Of a DNA stretch of 64,000 nucleotides, positions 2,340-63,363 are shown in pieces. Numbering within the stretch: position 1 is the first letter of the stretch; each line of letters begins with the position of its first letter. This DNA comes from Atriophallophorus winterbourni. Lineage: Eukaryota > Platyhelminthes > Trematoda > Plagiorchiida > Microphallidae. The notes beneath the pieces are model-generated. The model saw only the letters and a program-made list of their open reading frames with translations. It made no database searches and was not told the DNA's origin. The position numbers and the translations under genes are program-made. The DNA lies in the NCBI GenBank assembly GCA_013407085.1, contig JACCGJ010014207.1:36266-100265 (forward strand). Direction: 5' to 3'.

Positions 2340-2545
2340 TCACACTCAAATTATGCAACAAGAGGAATCAATGCTCACTGAACCTAATCTTACTGTCTCC
2401 ACCTGATGATGGCAAACAGTCAGAAACCGGTAGTGGAGTGTCATTTCGGGGGACGTGAGCAACACATCACTTAGGAATCTTGAATTTGAAACCACCATCA
2501 TATTGGGTCCGTACAACGAACAAGAATGTTGCAAGACAATCACAA
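2340..2545 (+). repeat. Hammerhead repeat, A-type unit
   Basis: One unit of the dispersed family, with the ribozyme at 2399 and flanking text shared with copies at 14.4, 26.2 and 58.2 kb. Confidence 0.8.
2399..2436 (+). ncRNA. Hammerhead ribozyme (type I-like)
   Basis: Stem I CCAC pairs with GTGG. The core is CTGATGA, stem II is TGGC with GTCA (one G-U), loop AAACA, then GAAA, palindromic CCGG stem III, and a TA cleavage dinucleotide. All required boxes are present. Confidence 0.8.
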
Positions 2546-2944: not shown

Positions 2945-3190
2945 TACAATCTATTGTGGTGCTCACATCCCATTTACTTACATATCAAAAGCGGTTTCGG
3001 GCTGTTTGCAGTCATCAGCTGGATACAGTAAGTTCGAGTCCAATGAACTTTGAAACAGTTTCAAAGTGCTAAACAAAATTAACAAGAATGCCACTGTTAA
3101 ACAGTGTTCTTACAGAGAACCCCGATGTTCAAATACTGAAACACAAAGCGCATCCTGCCCAAGCACTTATTATCGAGCAATACGGTGCTG
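2945..3190 (-). repeat. Hammerhead repeat, A-type unit
   Basis: Contains the shared ATTGTGGTGCTCACATCCC segment, the degenerate ribozyme and the conserved downstream region near 3088-3160. Confidence 0.75.
2986..3024 (-). ncRNA. Degenerate hammerhead ribozyme
   Basis: CTGATGA and GAAAC are kept with the AAACA loop, but stem I is eroded. Lies 350 bases before the first visible NRF exon. Confidence 0.5.
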
Positions 3191-6400: not shown

Positions 6401-9400
6401 ATAAATGATGTCATAGTCGAAACGAAAAGGATCCAGGGGTCGAATTTCTGGATTCGATTTTGAGGTGAGACTATCTAGTCGAGTCTTGAATCACAATCAT
6501 CATGCCCAAGTACGGCAGTGAAATTGATCAAGATATTCATCTCATTATCTGCTCTAGCTTTTCTGCTGTTTTGACACGATCAACTTGTTTAAAATAGTTT
6601 GTCATTCTGCCTTTCACCTGGGTGAGCAATTACACTGTGTTATCATTTCACAGGTTAACTCCGCTTTACATGTTGGTACTGATTCTGTACACGGGTTTGC
6701 TAAACCACATATATGACGGTCCGTTCTACATGCAGGACCCAAAATCTTCTGACATACAATTTTGTAAAAATCACTGGTACCTTATATACCTTAANNNNNN
6801 NNNNNNNNNNNNNNTGTTGGATAAGGCTGGTACGACCAACCTGTTCAAAGCATGTGTCCAAACACATGTTAAATTGGGTTAAACCCATAACCATGAAACA
6901 AAATATTCATTTGCATGCTTTTCCGTCATTCACACCCCACGACCGGTTTCGTGCTGTTTGCACTCATCAGGTAGGGACAGTAAGCTCAGGATCCGCATGC
7001 GCTTGAAACAGTGGAAGAATGGTAAACAAGGAGCGCTTGTATGCCACTGTTGGATAAGGCTGGTACGACCAACCTGTTCAAAGCATGGGTTCAAACACAT
7101 GTTAAATGGGGTTAAACCCATAACCATGAAACAAAATATTTCATCCTGATCTTACTGTCCCTACCTGCTGAGTGGCAAACAGCCCGAAACCGTCGTTGGG
7201 TTGTGAATACTGAAAAGCATGCAAATGATATCTAAGTTACAACCTTGTTGGACGATTTAAAGTCTTTAAATCTATAGCGGATAATCTGCGGCTCGAAACA
7301 AAAACACAAAAGATTATATGCACTCGCTTACGCGTTTTTCGTCACACGCGAACACTCCAGTTCAATGATCATTTATGCACAGACACGATCAACTCATGAC
7401 TACATCTGAGTATCCAGTGCTGACGTACCGAGTCTCGACACAGTTTTAAAAAATAAATCCACAGCTAAGTGATTATAGTTCGAACCAAAAGGACTTGGGG
7501 AATTTCCGGATTAGATTTGAGCGTTAGGCTATTCTAGTCGCGTTCTCGAATCGCAATGATAAATGAATTAAAACGTTCATCGTGCCCAAGTGCCGCAGTT
7601 AAATTGATCAAAATATTCATCTCATTATCTGCTCTAGCTTTTCTGCTGTTTTGACACGATCAACTTGTTTAAAATAGCTGGTCATTCTGTCTTTCACCTG
7701 GGTGGAAAATCACACTGTGTTATCATTTCACAGGTTAACTCCGCTTTACATGTTGGTATTGATTCTGTACACGGGTTTGCTAAACCACATATACGACGGT
7801 CCGTTCTACATGCAGGATCCAAAATCTTCTGACATACAATTTTGTAAAAATCACTGGTACCTTATATACCTTAACAACTTGGTGAAGTCATCAGAAATTG
7901 TGAGTCGCTATTTTTTAATTTTGAGTAATTTAAAATTTCAATGCTGGCAGTGTCAATAATTTGATTAGATTTTCCATATTCTTTTGCAAACATGTTGGTA
8001 AGCACTGGTATAGACTTACTGTTTTTATCAAGTTCAGCTTGCAAGCCACCTTTGGGTAAGGTTGGTACGACCAACCTGTTCAATCGCATGTGCATGCACA
8101 CATTTAGATGGGGTTAACCCCCTAGTCCTCAACAAGGATCCTCATTTCCATGTGATATAGATGCTTTGTTCATAGTTATGGGTTTAACCCCATCTACAAA
8201 TCATTGAACAGGTTGGTCGTACCAACCATTTCTATCAGTGGCATACAAGTGCTACTTATTTATCATTCTTCCACTGTTTCAAGGGCATGCGGATCCTGAT
8301 GCTATTGTCCATACCAGGTGAGTGCAAACAGCACGAAACCGGTCGTGGCGTGTTGGTGTGATGGAGATGCATGCAAATGAGCTTTATAGGTCATGATCAT
8401 GGGTTCAAACACTGTCTACACGAGTGTGGGCTCGTGCGGTTGAACAGTTTGGTCGTACCAACTTTATCCAACAGTGTCATACAAGCACAACTTAGTTACC
8501 ATTCTTCCACTGTTTCAAACGCATGCGGATCCTGGTCCTACTGTCTCTACCTGATGATTGCAAACATATCTTCACCGGTTGTGGGTTGTGTGTGTGTGAT
8601 GGAAATGCATGCAAAATGAACATCAATACCAGTAGCATAATTCAAGTGTCGGTTGGCGAACGGACTATGGATAACATCAGTGAAGTTGTTCTCAGCAGCT
8701 GTTTGCAATATAGAAATGGATATTCTATTTAAATATTCGGTATACGGATGGAGATTCCCATAGCTTTTACGTTGCTTATTCTCGTGCTGAATTTGATTTA
8801 TTTGTCTGTGTGTGAAGTGTACGTGTACGGTGAAAATGCTCAGCTCATCTACATGTGTATGAGCACAAGCAAATGAACATGTTTGTCGTACCAGCCTTAT
8901 CCAACGGATGTGTAATCGCACAGTACTTCTGTTCTGTACGGCTAACATCGTGCTAAATTGATTGGCCAGAGGTAGTGAGCTGCATGCTGAAACAGGCTGT
9001 AGTCTCACTACCATTTCCTGTTCTTTTTTCTTCCTCATATTTGTCTAGGCCTATGCAACCTGAAAGTATCTTAGCCCAAGTGCAGTCTGACTGTGCGGCA
9101 CTTTGCCTGGATCATGTTTGTGCTTTCATACCATCATACCATACGATCCAACAGTGAAGTATGAATCTTTGCACTTTGTCTGGCTCCAGACTTGTGCTTC
9201 ACGATGATGACGATATTGAAGTATGAATTCACACTTTGTTTACCATTTCATCATTGCTTGAAAGCTTGCGTATCCTGATCCGGCTGTCCCTACCTGTTAC
9301 AACACCAAACACGTCATGGGGTGTATGTGATTGAAATGCATGCAAGCACATATATGTATTTCAAGCATATGGTTTTAACCCCAACCAAAGGTGTGTGGGC

Positions 9401-12400
9401 ACCTGCGATTGAACAGATTGGTCCTGCCAGTCTTATCCAACTGTGAACCATAAGTTCAAGCTTTGACTAATTTTTATTCTACCTCACCGAGATTCAGTGG
9501 TAATTTCGCATTGAGTTTAACCATGAATCAATACTTTTTATTAGCTACAGTTGATCAGATATTGCATATGAAATGTTGAGTGCCAACCAAACAAAAATAT
9601 TGTAATCTCATGTTTAATGTTCATTTATAGTGTATGGGATGGACCTGGTACATGTCCAACGACATGCAATTCAGTCTCGTTTTGGCACCAATTTTTATCA
9701 CTCTTGCTACTTGGTGAGTAATAAGTAGTCTCAACGTTTACTTTTTGCGCACTCACTTATTTTGCGTTTTCCCGGAAGGCGGCGTTCTTTGTATCCTCCG
9801 AGCGCGCTTGATTTAAACTATCCGCCATTGTGAATCAAGCCATCTGCAATAGGTTCGCTAATGTGGCATATTCGAACGGAATTATTGAATGGTGTAAAAC
9901 TAGAAAGAATCTATTTCGGGGAATGTGAGCAACACATTACTTTAGGAAGAATCTATGTTATTGAACGTGTTGCTTCTAGACTCAGGATTAATTCACTTAA
10001 GCATTTGACATTTGCGCTAAAGTGAATGTTTTCGAGACAACACGACAACAAGAAGCGATTTGCTTCAAATCTTTATAAAGAAATATCAATGTGTAAATAT
10101 AAAGGGCACGCGAAGGATGTTCGTCCATTAAATTCGACACAGAACAGTTCAATTACACATTATATAAGTAGTCGGGAAACGAATAATTAAACGGAAACTT
10201 GTCCAATTTAGTTTTAAACTCATGCTAGTCAGTTGACTGAGTAAATGTAGAAGGTAAACTGTTCCTACTAAAACAGACACGGGCAGAATAAAAATGCCTT
10301 CTCCAGTGTATTCGGGAAATGGGTCAAAAAGCGAATATTCATGAGTGAGATAGTTCCGTGTTTCCCTTCGAGAGCATGAATGATTTAACGTATGAAATAT
10401 TTTGTAAAGTAGTAAAAGATCTCGTATGGTTCGTCGATAAGGAAAAGGGAACAAATTCAGGCGAGTGCTTCTTTCTTCGCAAGCACGTTTTCGAGTGTGG
10501 GATCCACAGTAACATTAACATTTGCACAATCAGACTATTCTATCACATACAAAATGTAAATCTGAAGCGTATGAACTGGAGCTTAATCGAACTAGGTGAC
10601 CATATTATCTGAAATACAGGGCCATACACCAGTGCATCTAGTTATATTTTAACAAGGCCAAATAAATTATCGCTGGTATTCTATATTTGAATTTGTAATA
10701 AGTGTTAAGTATCGTTCATACAATCAATGCACAATGTTCGACTACAGTTTCACCCAGTGATTTACGGTCATGCGTTGTTTTTGAGACACCGCTCCTAACC
10801 AATAAATCAGCCGGAATTGTTGATTGGCTGGAACTTGGACACCACACTTAACGATTGAAAACACCGACTTTAATTGGCCTGGGGTTTTGAAGAATTCTTG
10901 CAATCATTATCGATCTGGAAATATCGATCTATATGCTATAAGATTAGTGCTTACTTTCACACGATTCGCGTGAACATACATCGTTATTCCAAGAGTCAGT
11001 TGGCTTTTAGCCTTTTCTATGTTGGCACAACAACAAAGTGATTTTGGGGATCGACTTGGCTGAGAATATATTTTGCGACAAAGAAAACGCAAACCCAACA
11101 GCGATGAACACTAATCAATCACCAATGTGTTCTGTTGCTCACACATATAATACCGACGTGTAAGAGCCACAAAACACATCTAGCATGGATTCTTTCGTTC
11201 GCTTTATCAATGGCAGCGGCCCTGAGTGAGGTGGTCAGCACGATCCTGTGCTGTTCATCAGTTTCATTACTTTAGCATTTATTGAAATCGAATGTGACGA
11301 TCATACTTTAGCTAACCATGATATAAACCCCACCTATTGACAAATCATTTATCTACCTTACTTACATCAAGACAATTGATGCATATTATTTATACGTATA
11401 TATTTTGACGGTTATTGTAAAGTTGAGGTGATGGTGGTTACCTAACACACGTTTTTTCGATGAAACCACGTCACCCGTACTGCCTCATATACCGAACCCG
11501 AAGATATCCTCCGATTTTTGGTAAATACAAAAATCTGTAACGGCAACTTGTTAACGTAAGCAATCAAGCAACCCTATTTGATATAGTTTAGTCGGGACAC
11601 GCATAATCAATAATATGTTCTGAGCTCAGGAACATCATTATTTCGTAAAAGGAAATCAAACATGCACAGGGTTGCTCACTCATTCGAGCAATTACACTCC
11701 ACAACCGGTTTCCGGATGTTTGTCGTCATCAGATGGAGACGATAACTTTGGGTTCTTTGAGTCTTAGAACAGTTAAATACATTTGTCCTATTGAATTATC
11801 TCCAAATCCGTTGAGGTGCGAGCGATTATATCCGGGGAAACTTCTTACTGAAGTATTTCGAGAACACAAAATAATTGAATGTTTATCCTATAACAAAGTG
11901 GTCAACTTTTCATCAATAGTTAACGATGGATATTCCGCAGATTTATCAGGCACCACAGGGTTAAACTCATGTAAATTTGAACCCCACATCAGAACAGCGG
12001 TTTTGCTTTAAGTTGATTGCATCCGTATAATTTTAAAACGAAATTTCGCATTACGAAACATATGCATCACCAGTAAAACGATCCATTACAGGAACGACTA
12101 CGTCGGCTTAGCGTTCGCCAGTTCTCTGGTGGTCTCATCTGCAGCAACTTACGGAATAATCAGCTACCAAAAGGGATATGGTATTATCACTGTCGACGTG
12201 TGAGTGATTTTGTTTAATTCGAAGTGTTCGATATTAGTTGTAAATTTATTCACAAGGTTTCTAGTAGAATAATTCAAATGTCCCGTTCCACTCTGGTCCC
12301 AAGTTACTTCCGTTTATTAGGCTAAGTATTGTTGTTCGTATTGGTCTACTTCACATTCGGACACTGTTTTCTTCTGTTGAATGATATATATATTATTAAC

Positions 12401-15400
12401 GTGTTACATTGTTTACCAAGAGTTCATTCTGTTCGATTGATTGAACAAAGAACATCAACTGGATTAGCTTTGCATAATGATGGAAAATGCGATGGATGTT
12501 CCTTAAATCAAAAGCATTTAGTTTCCATTCGCTTCTCGCACTCAGTACACACATTCTGCATACCATGATTTTTGTTTTCGCGGTCAGATAGAGTTCAAAT
12601 GAGACAAAGTAACGGCTGCTCTTCCAATCCTTTGATCAATCTGTGTTTAACGGAAGTTTGACTACAATATATGAACCAATATATGTAAAGAATGGTCCAT
12701 TAGCAATTCTCATGAAAATAAGCCGATAGTATTTTTCATTCGGTCTTCGTACATCTCAATAATGATCCACATTTAGATAACTCTTCCAGTTGTGCTCATG
12801 GAATCCAGCTTTCTTGTGTGTACGCATCGGATAGACAGCCACGGAAGTTCATACTGGGAGCGTAGGTCACGGATATCACGTTTTTGTGCTCGATAAACTC
12901 GGTACAATCAGCATCCACAATGCGGTGTCTTTATGACGCCGCCCTTACTTCAAACTTATTAAATTTTCCCCTTATGAAAAACACAATGCCTAACGGCATA
13001 CAGTTTCACAATTCAAAACCCCCGGTGAAAATGAGTGAACCGATAGTTCACTTAACGGAAACATACACGACAACAGCCACATATTGCCATCATATAGAAT
13101 AGAATTAGCAAACCAACCCCCACCATTGAGATGAATACTAAATACATTCGTATTAAAAACAGCCATCCTAGTGTCCAGTTTCAAATATTCATTACATTTG
13201 TGCACTGTTCTATGTTCCATTTTACCTGAAAGAACTGACGCTGGTTATGAATGACGGAGATCAGAAGCCGCTCTCGACCAATCAGGAGGGAATTTTATTA
13301 GAACCAGTCAAAAGTAACTCGTAGATCATGTCTGACCACGCTACGTTGAATAAAGAAGCATTTAGCGGGCGTGAAATTAAGCGTATTTTCGTATGTTTTG
13401 GTTAATTGACCAAGGAAACAATGGGCATAGAAGGTCAAACTCTGGAATAACGGTACCATAAGGAATAGAACGGAAAAAAGGAGAGAGCCGAATTGAGAAA
13501 GTTGAAAATGTATCATGTAACTCATGAATACGATTGAGTGTATCTCGTTGTGATTGTCATTCTCACACGGTTCAAGGATTCCCGAGATGCACAAGCTTTC
13601 TTTCAACTCTCCAGTTAGAATTTTACGTGAGGCGTTGATCACATACCATTATCCTAACATAAGAGGGCAAACGTAATTTAGGTATCTCTTCCTAACTCTG
13701 AGCTAACACGTTCCAAGTCATATGGATCAAATTAACTGTTCAATTTTCACTTTTCTTATGTGTGTATTGTAGAGCTCGGTGTGTGAATACTGAAACGGAT
13801 ATCCTATGCTCTAATTGCGTTTTAATGAAAGCAAAATATGTGTTGAAACCTGTCTTAACACAACTGACATTTGCCTTGTTTTTCATATTATTTATACACA
13901 GGCAATTTTACGATGCCAATGCTGCTTGCTCTCTGCTCAGTTGAGCCCTATTCAAATCCGTTTCGGTTTAGATCAATCCTGTTTAAGAATTCAAGTCCAG
14001 TGCAATATCAGACTAATTCTATCACAACTAAACTAAACAGTCACAGACTAACGAAGTGCAAGTGGTAAAAATAGCATCGTCTACATATCACATGCACAAT
14101 AATCTCTGCCGTTGCAACTGCGTTTAATGGTAATTTTGTTGTGTTTTAGACGCTGGTTTTCTGACTTGTATGTCCTACCGTACACCAGATGGGGTGCGTA
14201 TGCGATCGGCATGATACTTGGGTGGCTATTGCTGAGACATCCGACAATACCATTGGTAAGTTTAAATGAATCCCTTGTGAGTGCACGTGACAAACAACCA
14301 ATAAGAAGCTAGGAGATTATTGATTTAGAATTCAAGTTATAAATATAACGCAACATACAAGACCAATGTATTGTGGTGCTCACGTCCTCATCCCTTACAC
14401 ACCACTACCGGTTTCTGGCTGTTTGCCGTCGTCAGGTGGAGACAGTACGCTCAGGTTCAGTGAGCCTTGAAACAGTGGACAAGTGGTAAACACAGTTATA
14501 CTTGAATGTCACTATTACATAGAGTTCGTATAACGAAGCACGATGTTCAAATAGAGAATCACAAAGTGATTCTTGGTCAAGCAAACAAGGCGTTTATGGA
14601 TGACTAAAGTTATGTGTTTCTCATATCCCCCACAGTTACACATCACTACCGGTTTCTGACTCTTTGCCTTCATCAGGTGAAGACAGTAAAGATTAGATTC
14701 AGTGAGCCTTGAAACTGTGGACAAGTGCTTAACAAAGTTATACTTGAAATTTTAATTCTAGATAGCATATATCAGAGAGCCTCTTATTTTGTTAATGGGC
14801 TCGAAAATACGTCTTCGCCGAGCGACTCAGACGACTGGAGCTGAGGAGACTTGTACAACGGATAATGCGAGGTGATCTCATCCTCGCATACAAAATACTT
14901 AATATTGTTTCCCAACCCCTGGATATATTATTCCATACAAGCATTACATATAAGCGCTTTGAAAAAAATGAAAGACCCGTTTCCTACGGTTATTCGCAAC
15001 TAGTAATTGGTGGTTTTATTTCACGAATAAAGGTAATAACTTGATTTCGATCATTTTTGTGATTTAACCTTGAATATTTTGTTATCATATGTGCAAAATA
15101 GATTAGCTTGCCTGAATGCAATTTACAAAATAAAGTTTCAACTCAGAAATGCAATGTAAAAGGAATATTGAAGATCCTGGACATCAAGAAAAAGGAATAT
15201 GCTGCCCGGCTGCTTCAAAGAACAAAGAAAAACAATTTTGCTCTTGTTTCTTACAAAATTTAGCAAATCGCAGATGGCTGCATAGACCAAAGCTGCGAAA
15301 AAAATGTTTCTACTGAAGTCTAACAAATGTGCAAATTTACCGCTCGAACTCATTGGCTGTCCTCCAAAATGTCTTACTTTTCTTCATTCTTACACGGATT

Positions 15401-18400
15401 ACACAATTGCGCTTCAAATAGGTTTTAAATTTAAAGATGCGGCAAACTAGAAGGTTACGAACCTTTATTCTTGTTCGTATTCTTCCCATGCTTCTAAAGA
15501 ATCAGATCTTTATAAAGGGTTTTACTTAATAACATGGTGTGACGATCAGCTATTTAATGTGAATTGTGTAAGAGTAAATATCGAGGTGGTTATTTAGCAA
15601 TCCATGAAATGATGCTCACTTAGCAGACCACGGCGTACCCCATCATCCGTGTCAGCTTCATTCAAAGCTGCTCTTCGTTTGTCTTGTTAGACTCTTGGAG
15701 CAGTAAAATATAGTTAGAGTATATGTCTAGGACAACCACTAGCTGATGTTACCTTAGGACAGTGAAACCCGGACCCAACCAGCTTAGGTTACGCTTGTTG
15801 GATTATGTTTTACGGAAGCCGGACCACCGACTTCCGAAACGGATTCTTTATGCGACGCCACATCCCGATTGGCGTAAATCTTCTGATGGCCAAATCGTCA
15901 CGTAGCATAGGCAGTTAAAAACCCTTACTAGTAACCTTTCCAAAGTCAGCGCAGCGTGTCTTCCAGTCTGATGTCCCCGCGATCAGATATCGCAGTGATT
16001 AGTTACACTTCCGGATATGTCTCGAAACCGTGTTCAGCAGTAGTCTTGTACTAAGCATCTTCTTGAAGTGTTTGATTAACCTTGTATGTTGTCAAGCGGA
16101 GTGACGAGAAAAGCTTGTAATGATGCATGACAGTGAAAGCCGCAAGGAAGCCACCATGCTGATGTCGCTCTACTCGTTCAAGAAACTTGTTTGAATGCAT
16201 GTTCCATTCGAGGCACATCATCCCAGTTTAATTGTGCTTTCTCTTCTATCGAATCCGTAGCTATTTAAGTCTCACCCTTCCCTATCTTTTAGTATTTTAC
16301 TTTTTCATGGTTGTGTGGCAGTTAAGCATTCGGTACGTGCTACCGGTGTAATGCTGTCTTTGATGATGATGATGACCACCCAAGCAAAACACAAACTGCA
16401 GAGAAATTCTGTTCACTTGAAAATCATTTGTATCCTTAGATGGTTAGAGTATCGAAATGCAGAAGTGCTCTCAAAAGCTTGCTGACATAGTTTGTACGCC
16501 CTAATGCGACAGCGGCTTCATTGTTTTCCCCAATTAGATACAGGCCAGAAGAGCAGCAACTTTGAGCCTTGAAACAGCAGATTTGAGATAAACCCACCCA
16601 TAAAGTTCCCCATATTTAAGATGATCACATCGTAGTTCTCAATAATGGAACCACCGTTTACATCTCATGATGTTTCGGTGATCGTTCTCATCCAAATCAA
16701 CTCCGCCGAGGACGGTCCCAAACCCGTCTGCAAAAGGAGGAGGGTTGAGCGTAAGGCTAGCTACCACACCTTCTAGCGCTGAAACGCCAACAAGAATACT
16801 AACAGACAACACGGACCTGAGATGGAAAGTGGATGACGTCGGACGGTGAAGCCAGAGTCATCTGGAAGCCGTCAGGCCGACGACTATCGTCTCCACCAGG
16901 ACCACCACTACCATCGCCACATGGAACGTCCGAAACCTGTATGATACTAGAAGGACAATTTAAGAAGCCGCAGATATGAGGAAGTATAACCTCACCATCT
17001 GAGGAATCAGCGAATCAAGATGGTTTGGTTCAGGGCAGATGCGACTGACTTTGGGTGAATTATTGCTCTACTCGGACCACGAGCAGGAAGATGCCGCACA
17101 CATCCAGGGAGTGGCCCTGATGCTTTCCAAGTCGGCACAGAGAGCGTTCATTGGGTGGAAGGCGTATGGACCACCAATATCAGGCTCTTCAACACCTTAG
17201 TAAAGCTAATACTAATCTACGGAGCATATACCTGGAGAACCACAGTTACCATCATGAATAATATCCATTCATCATTACATTCTTTCGGAAGATCCTAAAG
17301 ATCCGCTGGTCCGACAAGATCAGCTATGAATAATTGTGGCAACGAACGAAGCAGAAGCCTTACGACAAAGTCATCCCACAGAGATGCTGGCTATAGATTG
17401 GCCACACCCTCCGCAAACCTGCATCAAGCATTACCCCCAAGGGGAGAGAGGGCGACCTAGAAATACTTGGCGCCGAGGCCTGGATGCCGACGCCTAGCAG
17501 ATGCACAAGACGTGAGGACAGCTGGAGAAACTTGCCCAGAATCTGATGCTTAGAGAGACCTGGTTGGCGGCCGATGTCCCAGACGGGACCAAAAGAGGAA
17601 ATAAGTATGTAATAAGTCTTTTCCAAATCACTAGGTCGATTGCTCTGATTGCAGTAAACAGAACGACCCAGAAAATGTTTCCCTTCGCTTTATTTGATTG
17701 CAACATTTTACGCGAAGTATGAACTAACTACGATACAACCTTAGTGTAATTACGCATAATGTGACATTAAGCGGCGTTCGTTTCCGCACAACGTACATTT
17801 ACAAGTTCATAAAGCACATCACCAATTTTACAGAAACGAAATCTTCGCAATCTGATCTTGGTTCCGCTCGTTGGAATCGGAATCGCATCGACTTTGTGCT
17901 TGCTGGTGGTCTATGGATCCTACGGGGTGACCAGTGGAGAGCTTCCTCCACTTGATAAGGTCACTGAAGCTACGTATCTTGGGCTGCAGCGCCCAACGTT
18001 TGCCATCGGTCTGGCGATCACAGTGTACCTATGTGCTACCAGATGGGCAGGTTAGTTGGCTGACGCTTCGGATATCATATATCATATAACTTTATTTAGT
18101 TGACGTGTTAATTTTGGATTCTGCTAATGATTTTTGAGATCCATTTCAAACAAATCTATGGTGTTGCTCATATCTCCAGCACTTACACTGCGCAACCGCT
18201 TTCTGATTGTATGTTGACATTATGTGGAAACAGTGAGTCTTAGACATCGGAAAAAAGATATAATTTGAATCCATTGTTAAATAGGGATTGTACAACCGAA
18301 AAGGTTTAACTGACGAGAAAAATATAGCAGATGCTAACTGTTTCGTATAGATGATTGGGGACATCCGCTCACTAAATTATCCTCGCAACTCAAGCACCCC

Positions 18401-21254
18401 CTACTGTTTCAAGCGGAGGCAAGGTGTGTGATCATTAAGCGAGCAAATACTGGATATGAACGGCAACAAGACTGGGGTAATCTTTCAAGATTAGAAGCAA
18501 GTGTGATGAAACCCAGATAGATGTATGGGCATACATGTTCTAATGAACTATTTACACCCGATTCTATCAAAGTGATAAGAGGTTACTAATGAAATAACAA
18601 CGATTGAAGTAGCAATTTCATCGACAGATCATAAGTTGGGTGTTTTTGGCGTAGAGAGCTCATATTTAAACTCTTAATGAAATATAGTCTAACTTAGATG
18701 CGAAGTTGCAAACTAAATATGATTAAATAAGAAAGAATATCACCAATGTATTGTGGTGCTCACATCCCATCCCTTACATGCCACTAACGGTTTCTGGCTG
18801 TTGATGATATAGCATCCACGTCTTTGAGCGCCTCATGGACTGTTATAATCAAAGGCCTGATAATACCCATGATCCAGACAAAAGGCTGAAAACATGAATA
18901 GTACAGAATTATTGATTCAACCCCAAATGTTATTTTATGCTCCATAAAATCCTAAAAGGATATAGACAGCTCATTCTTTCTTCATACACACTGTAAATGA
19001 AAGCGATAAGAAAAGATCATTAGTGAAGCCTCAATCACTAAAACAATTTGAAAATAAAATGGGTTGATTCTGGATCTTGTTGGAATGCAAACTACGCTGA
19101 GATGGCGTTGGTGTAGCTACAGTGCGTGAACAAAGGCACTGTTGGCCTTCTTCGATCAATGTTGATTATGGATAGACAGTAAAAGCGCGTGACGGTTTCA
19201 TGCTCCACAGCGTTTCAGAGGAATATACAATGTGGCATTCGGGAGGAACAATCTCTCGCGAGGCGCTCACAGCGATAAGCAATACTCGATATCAGTTGCG
19301 AGATCTACAATCAAAAGCGAAAAGCAGTATCTACTTTTTCTCTAGCTTAGACATGACGTTTTACACAGTGCCTTTAAATTGAGCGATCAAGAGCAAATTG
19401 TTCCTAAATTGTAGAGGCAATGTCCAGAGCGAGGCACTAGTAGTTCCTTAAAGCAACGTTTATCACATTTTCGCAGTAATAAATGCTTGGTTATCCATAA
19501 TTTTTTTTCATTTTAGAACCGATAAGAATGGTGTTATCGTGGTCAGCTTTCCGGATTCCTGCTCGTTTAACTTATGGAGCCTATATGTTTCATCTTATTG
19601 TCATTTACCACATGGTGTATGGAAGTAAAACCACGTTTAGTGTGGACACGTTCTTGTGGGTAAGTTCAAGATGAATTTGGAAAGCGTTTTGATGCTAATT
19701 CCCTTTTTTCGATATAACTGCGAATGGATCGGATCCCTATCCTCACATCGGATCTTGGTTTATGCATAAGCGGTACCGTGCGACCGACGTGTAATAATGA
19801 ACGTTTAGTACTCATGAGTAATCTGAAAACCAATCTAAAAATCCAACGGTGGCATACAAGCGTTCCTTGTTTACCATTCCTCAACTGTTTCAAGCGCATG
19901 CGGATCCTGATCTTACTGTCTCTACCTGAAGAGTGCAAACAGCACGAAACCGGTCGTGGGGTGTTTGTGTCGGAAAAGCATGCAAATGAATATTTTGGTT
20001 CATGGTTATGAGTTTAACCCCATTAAACATGTGTTTGGACACATGCTTTGAACAGGTTGGTTGTACCAGCCTTATCTAACAGTGGCATACAAGCGCTACT
20101 TGTTTCATTCCTCATCAAGCGCATGCGGATCCTGATGTCTCTACCTGAAGAGTGCAAACAGCACGAAACCGGTCGTGGGGTGTTTGTGTCGGAAAAGCAT
20201 GCAAATGAATATTTTGGTTCATGGTTATGAGTTTAACCCCATTGTGTTTGGACACATGCTTTGAACAGGTTGGTTGTACCAGCCTTATCTAACAGCATAC
20301 AAGCGCTACTTGCATATCAATATATGGAATTTCGGACAAATCATCAATTTTCTAGATGTGGCCGATGACTTAGATCATGTGGATCGATCGACTCAGCAAA
20401 TTCCGTTTAACAGTGGCGCCACACCATAGCTTTGAAAAGCAGTATGCGTTCATGCAGACATAATGCCGAGCTTACAGAAGCTGAAATTTCGAATCAAGCT
20501 TCATCCTCCTTCTTCACAATTTTCCATTTCACTTCCTTGAATTCAACAGACATGAGGTAGGGTGAATTAGTGAGAGCCGTGAAATTATCACTCTAAATCA
20601 ATCGTGCAAACGGTGTTCATATAATGTACATGTGACTAAACAGACTGGCCGTGCCAGCCCAATGCAACAATGGCATACAAGTTCGTACTCGGTCTCTGTT
20701 CATACTTCCACCTTTGGTCTGACGAAGCCCCTGAATCAGAAGCGAAACGTGACCAATAAACCGCTCTCACCGATTAATTACAAACTTTCTTTTTCCATGA
20801 ATATGAATCCCCGATCGGTCACGAACGTTTTTCACTACATCGCCAAAGTTCTTACTTGGTTTACAATTTTTTTATTGTCTCAAAGCATGCGGATCCAGAT
20901 ATCCCTACCTGATGAGTGCAAACAGCGCGGTGGAAATGCATGCAAATACAGATTTCTGTGTACGAATTTTTGGGGCACATGTGATTGAGAGATCCATGTT
21001 CCGTTTAAATTTCTTCAACCCAAATGAGCGTGTCAACAGCCTTTGTGTTTAGCGCATCCACTAAAATCATACACAACTACGCAATTCCCAACCATTCAAT
21101 CCATTTTCAGGTCTACCAATTTTTCTCCGTTTTATGCATAAGTTATCTTGGGAGTTTCGTGCTGTCCATGGTGAGCGAGGCGCCTGTACATGCGATGGAG
21201 CGTTTCATTCGTCGACCAGCGAAGCATTCACGCGACCGACCATTACTGCCATAA
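3376..21254 (+). CDS. NRF-6-like acyltransferase-3 membrane protein (C-terminal 356 aa, 8 exons)
   Basis: Multi-pass membrane protein of the acyltransferase-3 family, nose-resistant-to-fluoxetine branch. In nematodes NRF-6 relatives act in lipid and drug movement across epithelia; the substrate here is unknown. Exons are 3376-3480, 7734-7899, 9631-9713, 12092-12199, 14150-14255, 17834-18050, 19517-19659 and 21111-21254. All acceptors end in AG, all donors begin with GT, and phases agree at every junction. Joined, they give one open frame of 357 codons ending in TAA. Family signatures are SGLLTVYL, HRFMRLTPLY, CMGWTWYMSNDMQF, LPYTRWGAYAIGMILGWLL, and the C-terminal SMVSEAPVHAMERFI. At least eight hydrophobic segments are visible. 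The first exon starts in mid-codon, so upstream exons with the extracellular NRF domain exist; I could not find them in 1-3375. Family assignment is firm from motifs; function is by homology only. Confidence 0.9.
3940..4216 (+). mobile_element. RTE-like LINE 3' untranslated end
   Basis: Matches the 3' region that follows the reverse transcriptase end at 16.1-16.4 kb, finishing in a GATGATGATG tail. Confidence 0.75.
4308..4835 (-). mobile_element. LINE C-terminal ORF (152 aa) with Cys-His motif
   Basis: Reads RRLRWLGHVYRMENGRIPKD, YKDVCKRDMKALDIDPASWE, and a C-terminal C..CGRDC..RIG...H...C zinc-like motif. Open from 4831 to 4373, then a 3' tail ending in (CAA)n. This is the end of a reverse-transcriptase polyprotein, 5' truncated. 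Confidence 0.85.
4868..4945 (-). mobile_element. Second 3' end of the same LINE family
   Basis: Repeats the (CAA)n-ended tail with the GGTCGATGTCGACCATG palindrome found at 4332. Confidence 0.7.
4950..6170. other. NRF intron, nothing recognised
   Basis: AT-rich sequence without coding matches. 5990-6060 has a short inverted relation to 5840-5870 (GGTACCGAC, AAAGGGTTAA) but no clear element. Confidence 0.5.
6654..6794 (+). other. Duplicate copy of the NRF LTPLY exon, cut by the assembly gap
   Basis: Same acceptor and same 47 codons as the exon at 7734, truncated by the run of N at 6795. It differs at three bases, all synonymous (CTG/TTG, TAT/TAC, GAC/GAT). It may be a true alternative exon, a pseudo-exon, or an unmerged haplotype copy. 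Confidence 0.85.
6795..6814. other. Assembly gap (20 N)
   Basis: Exactly 20 N characters. Left flank is the duplicated exon; right flank is a hammerhead repeat that also occurs at 7048. Gap length is probably a placeholder. Confidence 0.99.
6935..6976 (-). ncRNA. Hammerhead ribozyme, complete
   Basis: Read on the minus strand: stem I CCCTAC pairs over six positions with GTGGGG. Core CTGATGA, stem II GTGC/GCAC, loop AAACA, then GAAA, palindromic CCGG, and a TC cleavage dinucleotide preceded by G (GTC). Every consensus position is met. Confidence 0.88.
7159..7200 (+). ncRNA. Hammerhead ribozyme with a core change
   Basis: Same design as the copy at 6935 but opposite strand. The core reads CTGCTGA, changing a required A, so activity is doubtful. 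Confidence 0.5.
7734..7899 (+). CDS. NRF-like gene, exon with LTPLY membrane segment
   Basis: Reads LTPLYMLVLILYTGLLNHIY, then a lumenal or extracellular loop with a cysteine (FCKNHWYLIYLNNLV). Acceptor TCATTTCACAG, donor GTGAGT, phase 0 at the 3' end. A near-identical copy of this exon lies 1080 bases upstream. Confidence 0.92.
8311..8351 (+). ncRNA. Degenerate hammerhead ribozyme
   Basis: Stem II GTGC/GCAC, GAAA, CCGG and GTC are kept, but the first box reads CAGGTGA instead of CTGATGA. Likely inactive. Confidence 0.45.
8545..8590 (+). ncRNA. Degenerate hammerhead ribozyme
   Basis: CTGATGA is kept, but the GAAA box and the second strand of stem II are replaced. It is the second unit of a tandem pair with the copy at 8311. 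Confidence 0.4.
8910..9145 (+). mobile_element. SINE-like element (230-bp family)
   Basis: Nearly full length in sense orientation: starts GGATGTGTAATCGCACAG, ends GCTTTCATACCATCATACC. Confidence 0.8.
9240..9460 (+). repeat. Hammerhead repeat, B-type, eroded
   Basis: Shares the CATGCAAG and GATTGAACAGATTGGTC segments of the family; ribozyme core lost. Confidence 0.65.
9631..9713 (+). CDS. NRF-like gene, CMGWTWYMSNDMQF exon
   Basis: Acceptor TTCATTTATAG and donor GTGAGT. Encodes the family hallmark CMGWTWYMSNDMQF followed by a membrane segment. Two bases (TG) are carried to the next exon to complete Trp. Confidence 0.93.
10149..10610 (-). mobile_element. Non-LTR retrotransposon, reverse transcriptase C-terminal remnant
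   Basis: Minus strand reads PYRRTIRDLLLLYKIFHTLN in one frame with the upstream part in another. Typical of the C-terminus of CR1/jockey-like proteins. Confidence 0.6.
11670..11770 (-). repeat. Hammerhead repeat, A-type fragment
   Basis: Short fragment around the ribozyme at 11699. Confidence 0.6.
11699..11738 (-). ncRNA. Partly degenerate hammerhead ribozyme
   Basis: CTGATGA, loop AAACA, GAAA and CCGG are present; stem II has mismatches. Confidence 0.5.
12092..12199 (+). CDS. NRF-like gene, membrane-segment exon
   Basis: Encodes NDYVGLAFASSLVVSSAATY, a transmembrane stretch, then a polar loop. Donor GTGAGT splits a valine codon that the next exon completes. Confidence 0.88.
12200..14100. 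other. NRF intron, nothing recognised
   Basis: Short open frames at 12329 and 13298 (minus) have no family resemblance and no flanking splice sites that fit the gene phase. Confidence 0.5.
14150..14255 (+). CDS. NRF-like gene, PYTRWGAYAIGMILGW exon
   Basis: Encodes RWFSDLYVLPYTRWGAYAIG, then MILGWLLL. The YTR..Y..G..LGW pattern is typical of the family. Acceptor GTGTTTTAG, donor GTAAGT, phase 0 out. Confidence 0.92.
14402..14439 (-). ncRNA. Hammerhead ribozyme, first of a tandem pair
   Basis: Minus strand: stem I CCAC/GTGG, core CTGACGA (allowed CTGANGA), stem II CGGC/GCCA with a terminal mismatch, GAAA, CCGG, TA. Confidence 0.72.
14641..14682 (-). ncRNA. Hammerhead ribozyme, second of a tandem pair
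   Basis: Minus strand: core CTGATGA, stem II AGGC/GTCA partly paired, GAAA, CCGG. Cleavage sites of this copy and the one at 14402 are 241 bases apart. Confidence 0.65.
14800..15090 (+). mobile_element. CR1-like LINE C-terminal remnant
   Basis: Plus strand reads LRRLVQRIMRGDLILAYKIL, the conserved end RR.RGDLI..YKIL of CR1 reverse transcriptases. Confidence 0.7.
15600..16375 (+). mobile_element. RTE-like LINE, C-terminus and 3' end
   Basis: Plus strand reads ATPHPDWRKSSDGQIVTWHR and ARLPGWCPRDQISQWL, then the 3' region ending in GATGATGATGATG at 16363-16376. Confidence 0.82.
16640..17615 (+). mobile_element. LINE with endonuclease joined to C-terminus (internal deletion)
   Basis: Plus strand begins with TIATWNVRNLYDTRRT, the AP-endonuclease signature, continues to ALMLSKSAQRAFIGWKAYG, then jumps to LILIYGAYTWRTTVTIMN and a C-terminal PQGERGRPRNTWRRGLDADA. 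The reverse transcriptase palm is missing. Several stops. Confidence 0.82.
17834..18050 (+). CDS. NRF-like gene, two membrane segments
   Basis: Encodes a long hydrophobic run (LILVPLVGIGIASTLCLLVV), a loop, and a second one (RPTFAIGLAITVYLCA), with the family RP.WA-like motif as RPTFAIG. Acceptor CAATTTTACAG, donor GTTAGT. Confidence 0.92.
18140..18320 (-). repeat. Hammerhead repeat, A-type, eroded
   Basis: Recognisable flanks but mutated boxes (CGCTTTCTG for CGGTTTCTG). Confidence 0.6.
18740..18805 (-). repeat. Hammerhead repeat, truncated A-type
   Basis: Starts with the family segment ATTGTGGTGCTCACATCCC and breaks off inside stem II. Confidence 0.65.
19140..19450 (-). mobile_element. Eroded copy of the LINE at 4308
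   Basis: Shares AGGAACAATCTCTC and the TTGTTGGCC-like end with 4308-4450, in the same orientation. Confidence 0.6.
19517..19659 (+). CDS. NRF-like gene, LTYGAYMFHLIV exon
   Basis: Encodes SWSAFRIPARLTYGAYMFHL, the late family motif (L.RLTY..YL.H), then a membrane segment. Acceptor CATTTTAG, donor GTAAGT, phase 0 out. Confidence 0.93.
19920..19961 (+). ncRNA. Hammerhead ribozyme, complete
   Basis: Stem I CTCTAC pairs with GTGGGG using G-U pairs. Core CTGAAGA (allowed CTGANGA), stem II GTGC/GCAC, loop AAACA, GAAA, CCGG, GTC with cleavage predicted after 19955. Confidence 0.83.
20139..20180 (+). ncRNA. Hammerhead ribozyme, complete, tandem to the previous
   Basis: Identical in all core elements to the copy at 19920. 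Predicted cleavage after 20174, 219 bases from the first, which gives the monomer length of this array. Confidence 0.83.
20635..20960 (+). repeat. Hammerhead repeat with inserted second repeat
   Basis: Family flanks at both ends; CTGATGAG and the loop remain but GAAA is deleted. 20690-20830 is another repeat (CTTTGGTCTGACGAAGC) also at 21.66 and 55.8 kb. Confidence 0.65.
21111..21254 (+). CDS. NRF-like gene, terminal exon
   Basis: Acceptor CCATTTTCAG. Encodes the last membrane segment and the family ending SMVSEAPVHAMERFI, then a basic cytosolic tail ending DRPLLP and TAA at 21252-21254. No clear AATAAA was found just downstream. Confidence 0.93.
   Translation, partial: VYQFFSVLCISYLGSFVLSMVSEAPVHAMERFIRRPAKHSRDRPLLP

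Positions 21255-24734: not shown

Positions 24735-63363
<38,629 letters not shown>

Follow-up and report, generated by a model that had tools for sequence, protein, structure and literature searches.

The window (the whole stretch of DNA analysed, 64,000 nt) contains 16 copies of a dispersed repeat with a hammerhead motif, which fall into two subfamilies (Table 1). Subfamily A comprises four intact copies (6935, 19920, 20139 and 56111) and three decayed ones (7159, 8309 and 8545), and subfamily B comprises five intact copies (2397, 14400, 14641, 26363 and 58243), three decayed ones (2983, 11697 and 18188) and one that is split (58559). In the intact A copies, stem I pairs CCCUAC or CUCUAC with GUGGGG, stem II pairs GUGC with GCAC, and the site is GUC; in the intact B copies, the proximal stem I is CCAC/GUGG-like, stem II is GGC/GCC-like and the site is GUA or GUU. 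The subfamilies can be aligned beyond the hammerhead (e.g., 19849-19964 with 14512-14397, 77% by self-BLAST), and we therefore treat them as one family. The same 64 kb also holds an unrelated hammerhead family (family C) and a twister-like motif, and thus three kinds of ribozyme-bearing sequence. Protein-coding traces include a reverse transcriptase (RT) frame at 39.1-40.4 kb; the named relatives of its 39.7-40.4 kb portion come from Spirometra, Schistocephalus, several Schistosoma species, Trichobilharzia, Heterobilharzia and Opisthorchis, with one from a cuttlefish. Together with a piece at 16.9-17.2 kb whose two relatives are both from Schistosoma, this makes a platyhelminth, perhaps a trematode, the probable source. 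There are also exons of a GCN2-like kinase within 41036-44030 on the minus strand, whereas the matches found at 56.2 kb and at 63.1 kb are weak ones, to kinases in general.

Table 1. Hammerhead copies and paired units in the window, with the evidence for each.
Feature	Positions	Strand	Evidence
A hammerhead, core and proximal stem I	6935..6976	-	Rfam 32.9 bits; descriptor; B-built model; 66-nt stretch with distal stem I is 6921-6986
A hammerhead, single truncated unit	56111..56152	-	Rfam 32.9 bits; descriptor; B-built model
A hammerhead, first of tandem pair, predicted cut 19955/19956	19920..19961	+	Rfam 32.0 bits; descriptor; B-built model
A hammerhead, second of tandem pair, 219 nt on, predicted cut 20174/20175	20139..20180	+	Rfam 32.0 bits; descriptor; B-built model
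A head-to-tail unit pair and start of a third	19841..20312	+	self-BLAST 19841-20102 vs 20074-20312, 89.7%; sequence read
B hammerhead, sole intact B copy with stem II fully paired	2397..2438	+	descriptor; model training row
B hammerhead	26363..26404	+	descriptor; model training row
B hammerhead	58243..58284	-	descriptor; model training row
B hammerhead, one of tandem pair	14400..14441	-	descriptor; model training row
B hammerhead, other of tandem pair, 241 nt away	14641..14682	-	descriptor; model training row
B head-to-tail unit pair	14361..14756	-	self-BLAST 14748-14602 vs 14506-14361, 81%
Decayed B copy, helix III CCGC, weak stems	2983..3024	-	model training row; fails descriptor
Decayed B copy, stem II broken, boxes intact, distal stem I GUUAU/GUAAU	11697..11738	-	model training row; fails descriptor
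Decayed B copy, broken CUGANGA box	18188..18229	-	model training row
B copy split by short retroelement 58331-58562, apparent 8-nt target duplication ACCTGATG	58559..58600	+	model match 58554-58614; duplication by eye
Decayed A copy, head-to-head with 6935-6976	7159..7200	+	B-built model
Decayed A copy, first of pair 236 nt apart	8309..8350	+	B-built model
Decayed A copy, GAAA box lost	8545..8586	+	B-built model
Family C hammerhead, inside imperfect palindrome 48179-48398 (82%)	48258..48302	-	Hammerhead_1 34.4 bits, above gathering; HH9 38.3 bits (gathering 52); descriptor
Family C hammerhead, 3' of tRNA A/B box-like stretches	48694..48747	+	HH9 30.8 bits (gathering 52); descriptor; within 48600-48760

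The structural descriptor, composed after the motif had been seen, required the CUGANGA box, a stem II with three pairs or more (one mismatch being tolerated), the GAAA box, a short helix III, UH, and a stem I in which four or more pairs run without interruption. In the window it matched 11 times, as compared with a mean of 0.01 and a maximum of 1 in 300 dinucleotide-preserving shuffles. Nine of these matches were the A/B loci that a first-pass annotation, made from the letters alone, had named as hammerheads, and the other two belong to family C (48296 minus and 48705 plus). Both catalytic boxes occur at all nine named loci in pattern and descriptor scans, as do the NUH site and stems I and II, with one stem II mismatch allowed; the B coordinates given there lie 2 nt inside ours because a 4-bp stem I had been counted. 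"Weaker ones" had been mentioned with no coordinates attached, and we found seven decayed or split copies among the 16, all of which fail the descriptor. In the suggested comparison with Rfam, Hammerhead_1 (RF00163) matched four of the nine loci, namely the A copies, at 32.0-32.9 bits (E 2.5e-4 to 4.9e-4; gathering 34), the five B loci were absent from the matches at E up to 10, and none of the nine reached the gathering score. The sole Rfam match above gathering (34.4 bits) was the family C locus at 48258-48302 on the minus strand, which lay outside the earlier list.

We built a covariance model from eight B copies only and searched the window with filters off. Sixteen loci were matched at E 2e-6 or better, comprising the eight training rows, the four intact A copies (E 1.5e-15 to 1.5e-11) and four damaged copies (58554, 8299, 7149 and 8535); the next matches had E 0.089 and worse, and family C was absent among the best 30 matches listed. 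Because A and B are homologous beyond the hammerhead, this recovery of A does not count as an independent line of structural evidence. When viral_contigs and genome_contigs were searched with a 30-letter IUPAC pattern of the A/B core, no exact match came up.

Pairing in the alignments exceeded that of shuffled controls. In the 16-copy alignment (14 distinct sequences), 77.8% of cells pair, a value that none of 500 shuffles attained, and the covariation score was reached by one of 500. An extended structure, drawn on 12 copies (7159, 8309, 8545 and 58559 were left out), pairs in 83.3% of cells with a covariation score of 0.245, either of which was reached by 0/500 shuffles; six of its 15 pairs changed on both sides (28/500 shuffles reach that), and slid structures on the 12-copy alignment pair in 25-42% of cells. 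As related rows may exceed shuffles even if no structure exists, and as much of the change amounts to a single A/B difference, we take the covariation as supportive rather than strong. The first-pass annotation had called it strong; covariation is indeed present, but it is modest, since much of it is that one difference and the base of stem II is unpaired in most intact B copies. Both stem I subtypes that had been proposed, CCCUAC/GUGGGG for A (with CUCUAC as a variant) and CCAC/GUGG-like for the proximal stem of B, were found in the intact copies. For stem II, the A version (GUGC/GCAC) held, but the B version was not TGGC/GCCA: copy 2397-2438 reads TGGC/GTCA and the four others have a mismatch at the base. 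That basal pair is U-A in 2397 only, and C.A in three and A.A in one of the other intact B copies, leaving four of the five lacking the first stem II pair. Single-strand folding of A/B stretches was no better than that of shuffles (z -1.12, -0.26 and 0.37; 0.66, 1.17, -1.29 and -1.29).

Outside the proximal stem, and behind an internal loop, B copies carry a distal stem I in which CUUAC pairs with GUAAG; the sides of the loop hardly vary, being UGU ahead of the proximal stem and GU following it. This stem is paired in 46 of 60 cells across the 12 copies (B 33/40, A 13/20, the subfamily split being counted by eye), with four A copies retaining 4, 4, 3 and 2 of the five pairs and the decayed copy 11697 keeping it as GUUAU/GUAAU. 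As read from sequence, the conserved internal loop, the distal stem I of B and a loop II of AAACA, found in 13 of the 16 rows, may provide the sides of a loop 1-loop 2 contact. A view of the A/B motifs as minimal hammerheads of the type found in Penelope-like elements (PLEs) was dropped once the distal stem I had been seen and counted.

Helix III consists of one A-U pair closed by CCGG, forming the palindrome ACCGGU, and is intact in 13/16 copies. We computed two-strand energies for seven sequences, without tertiary contacts and with the distal stem left out. The double hammerhead was the predicted minimum for both A sequences computed and, except for one isolated outer pair, for the B copy at 14400-14441 (3/7 overall), whereas in the other four dimers, all B, another fold was lower in energy. 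For none of the seven monomers was the exact hammerhead the minimum. The evidence supports assigning the A/B loci to type I hammerheads, for which self-cleavage is predicted. The earlier reading of type I hammerheads in a dispersed repeat family is thus upheld by the shuffles, by pairing kept through changes and by the recovery of A copies with a B-only model, and its predicted cut at 19955/19956 falls at the correct position.

Comparing copies that share a flank, hammerhead identity between A and B was 0.75 against 0.60 for the upstream flank (12 pairs) and 0.73 against 0.46 for the downstream flank (28 pairs), indicating that the hammerhead was kept while the subfamilies diverged. The corresponding values for hammerhead and flank within B were 0.81 and 0.79 on the upstream side (6 pairs), and 0.77 and 0.60 on the downstream side (21 pairs); within A they were 0.97 and 0.96 on the downstream side (6 pairs). 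Inside a subfamily, the hammerhead is therefore hardly better kept than the near flanks, which makes no case for selection on the copies themselves; single copies decay at about the rate of their near flanks. An initial comparison of 12 copies had put hammerhead identity at 0.97 for A, 0.79 for B and 0.73 for A against B, with flank blocks at 0.54-0.90, 0.28-0.61 and 0.31-0.48, respectively; the wider gap seen there arises partly from truncated copies, whose flank is other DNA.

Neighbouring hammerheads are spaced by 219 nt in the intact A pair, 241 nt in the intact B pair and 236 nt in the decayed A pair (8309/8545). The remaining copies are single or truncated, some lying head-to-head (6935/7159 and 58243/58559). 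Tandem Repeats Finder listed none of the three pairs, looser settings included, probably because an array amounts to about two copies and these contain indels. One array, 19841-20312, was inspected for target-site duplications, and none was seen at its ends. We noticed no tRNA-like head by eye in the A/B units, and ARAGORN found no tRNA in the window. In six-frame Pfam scans of 1.8-6.7, 6.8-16.3, 18.0-21.6 and 54.5-59.3 kb, neither an RT nor a GIY-YIG domain appeared at E up to 0.1, and there were only two unrelated weak matches; such scans can miss decayed frames, as they were silent at 16.7-17.8 kb despite a transposon-like piece.

Two units are interrupted by a dispersed element of ~230 nt with an (ACAT)n-like tail (8904-9140, 26416-26649, 41537-41768, 58331-58562 and others), for which a profile gave 32 matches above the inclusion threshold, eight of them training copies. 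By eye, this retroelement splits one B unit inside its hammerhead with an apparent duplication of ACCTGATG, and the same kind of element splits an A unit at 8904-9140 with an apparent duplication of ATCCAAC. The closeness of the units to its tails was not significant (p 0.14-0.24; 21 tails, circular shifts). Near the 6935 locus, a 298-nt direct repeat (6497-6794 and 7577-7874, 95%) sits beside a 20-base N gap (6795-6814), and is possibly an assembly effect.

The arrangement of the A/B units is akin to that of metazoan retrozymes, described as tandem arrays whose repeats measure 150-450 bp and carry type I hammerheads, with platyhelminths named among the hosts (PMC7229834). The A/B repeats likewise form head-to-tail units within 150-450 bp around a type I hammerhead (220-240 bp in coral; PMC7229834), have a GC content below 50% (0.45 and 0.44 in two units), and show no relevant Pfam domain in the frames scanned. 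The motif, its pairing, the A-B conservation, the two intact head-to-tail pairs and the absence of a coding partner in the stretches scanned directly support the reading that we favour, and hold to be probable if some way from secure: A and B form one non-autonomous retrozyme-like family, partly decayed, for which we infer cutting, action as dimers, circles and retrotransposition. In such a cycle, a tandem copy would be transcribed and the type I hammerhead of each unit would fold into a stem I whose internal loop 1 faces loop II, a stem II, and a helix III that is too short to be stable by itself. Two adjacent hammerheads could then join into a double hammerhead by pairing between their palindromic ACCGGU segments; this would cut after GGUC in A, or GGUA/GGUU in B, and free RNAs one unit long (about 220-240 nt). 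These could be circularised by a host ligase, and the enzymes of a retrotransposon encoded elsewhere might copy the circles back into DNA as tandem copies.

This version of the hammerhead probably works in pairs, and the closest parallel for its helix III lies in amphibians. According to PMC7229834, the axolotl HHR_Amex1 has a one-pair helix III with a palindromic tetraloop, which A/B share, and cuts much better as a dimer. HHR_Amex1 and the satellite hammerheads of newt also share a loop 1 in stem I and tandem repeats, and cut as dimers (PMC7229834, PMC6155905), but they differ from A/B in host, in sequence, in their ~330 bp as compared with a spacing of 219-241 nt, and in far longer arrays. 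For most invertebrate retrozymes, in contrast, cleavage is reported for the monomer, with a helix III that is stable (PMC7761336), and A/B differ from them by the one-pair, palindromic-tetraloop helix III and the short arrays. The dimer-type helix III in an apparent invertebrate is one point of interest here, and the three kinds of ribozyme-bearing sequence within 64 kb are another. One may tentatively propose, as a possibility we would not yet expect to hold, a flatworm retrozyme lineage dependent on hammerhead dimers, in which helix III has been cut down to ACCGGU and kept so in both subfamilies while stems I and II changed, and only multimeric transcripts are cut. If true, the published division into invertebrate retrozymes that cut as monomers and amphibian ones that cut as dimers would no longer hold, and cleavage would become a test of tandem copy structure. 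The ACCGGU helix III offers a simple test of dimer dependence in invertebrate retrozymes.

Compatible with a retrozyme-like family, and a serious possibility though not the state of affairs that we would assume, is that the copies are relics only, the source element having used hammerheads and no copy here being transcribed or cut today. The descriptor rejects seven of the 16 copies, another insertion has split one, and the rate at which the hammerhead decays within subfamilies is about that of the near upstream flank. Against this, the tandem A pair carries two identical intact 42-nt hammerheads, and those of 6935 and 56111 are likewise identical to each other, suggesting that these copies or their source are fairly recent.

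It is unlikely, in our estimate, that the units are instead broken-off pseudo-LTR pieces of a PLE, with the ribozyme belonging to the RNA of the autonomous element. PLEs are known to carry minimal tandem hammerheads that lack a real helix III and are possibly dimeric (PMC7761336, PMC6155905 and PMC11167929), and A/B resemble them in a minimal helix III and in dispersed, often truncated copies. The PLE forms are also tandem and probably dimeric (PMC7761336, PMC11167929, PMC6155905), but they are described as mostly without helix III or the tertiary contacts, and A/B differ from them by an internal loop and by a distal stem I, which B has and A retains in part. The stretches scanned, moreover, yielded no PLE domain, RT or GIY-YIG, at E up to 0.1, bearing in mind that decayed frames can escape.

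Far less credible is a role of the minus-strand copies 56111, 58243 and 48258 as intronic ribozymes on a GCN2-like pre-mRNA, like the amniote HH9/HH10 motifs. Two stretches, 43.5-44.0 and 41.0-41.4 kb, do hold minus-strand GCN2-like exons, what may be an N-lobe piece at 56.2-56.5 kb (best E 0.17, and not to GCN2) would place 56111 and 48258 in one intron, and 48258-48302 scores best with Hammerhead_HH9; yet the plus-strand copies are equally well kept. The consensus boxes are short and the folding energies of the A/B stretches unremarkable, but chance matches to the boxes are ruled out, to a degree that leaves them practically negligible, by 11 descriptor matches as compared with a mean of 0.01 in the 300 shuffles.

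Trematode hammerhead repeats have long been known, and the A/B family looks like one more family of a known kind; it adds a hammerhead repeat family, with two subfamilies that can be compared, in a flatworm-like genome. About 38,500 hammerhead candidates have been counted in Schistosoma mansoni (PMC7229834, PMC6155905, PMC7761336, PMC11167929, PMC2770079 and PMC8490949, taken together), and three of five W-element hammerheads tested cut in vitro, the other two having core or site defects (PMC8490949). The SINE-like Sm-alpha/Sj-alpha hammerheads of Schistosoma and the W-elements are likewise short trematode hammerhead repeats (PMC2770079 and PMC8490949). By Rfam score and inspection by eye, A/B differ from Sm-alpha in scoring below gathering and in showing no tRNA-like head. 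Among the literature matches listed, those on five fluke genera did not include "hammerhead ribozyme", and no title or abstract start was about the A/B repeat itself.

Family C may resemble Sm-alpha-like SINEs, with the Hammerhead_1 gathering score reached at one locus and tRNA-box-like stretches at the other. These stretches, which lie ~34 nt upstream of the C hammerhead at 48705, were picked out by eye and look like tRNA A and B boxes. A weaker hammerhead-like motif at 43454-43495 on the plus strand has both boxes and a paired stem I, with a poor stem II, and fails the descriptor; a B-box-like GTTCGAAT is found upstream of it. At 16694-16748, also on the plus strand, a Twister-P1-like motif scored 35 bits (E 7e-4; gathering 67.2). 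Some 160 nt downstream of it lies a decayed piece (16907-17176) that is 65% and 52% identical to two unnamed Schistosoma proteins; Pfam found no domain in this piece, which by motif resembles the endonuclease of an RTE-type element. Truncated twisters have been described as conserved at the 5' ends of RTE elements (PMC7761336).
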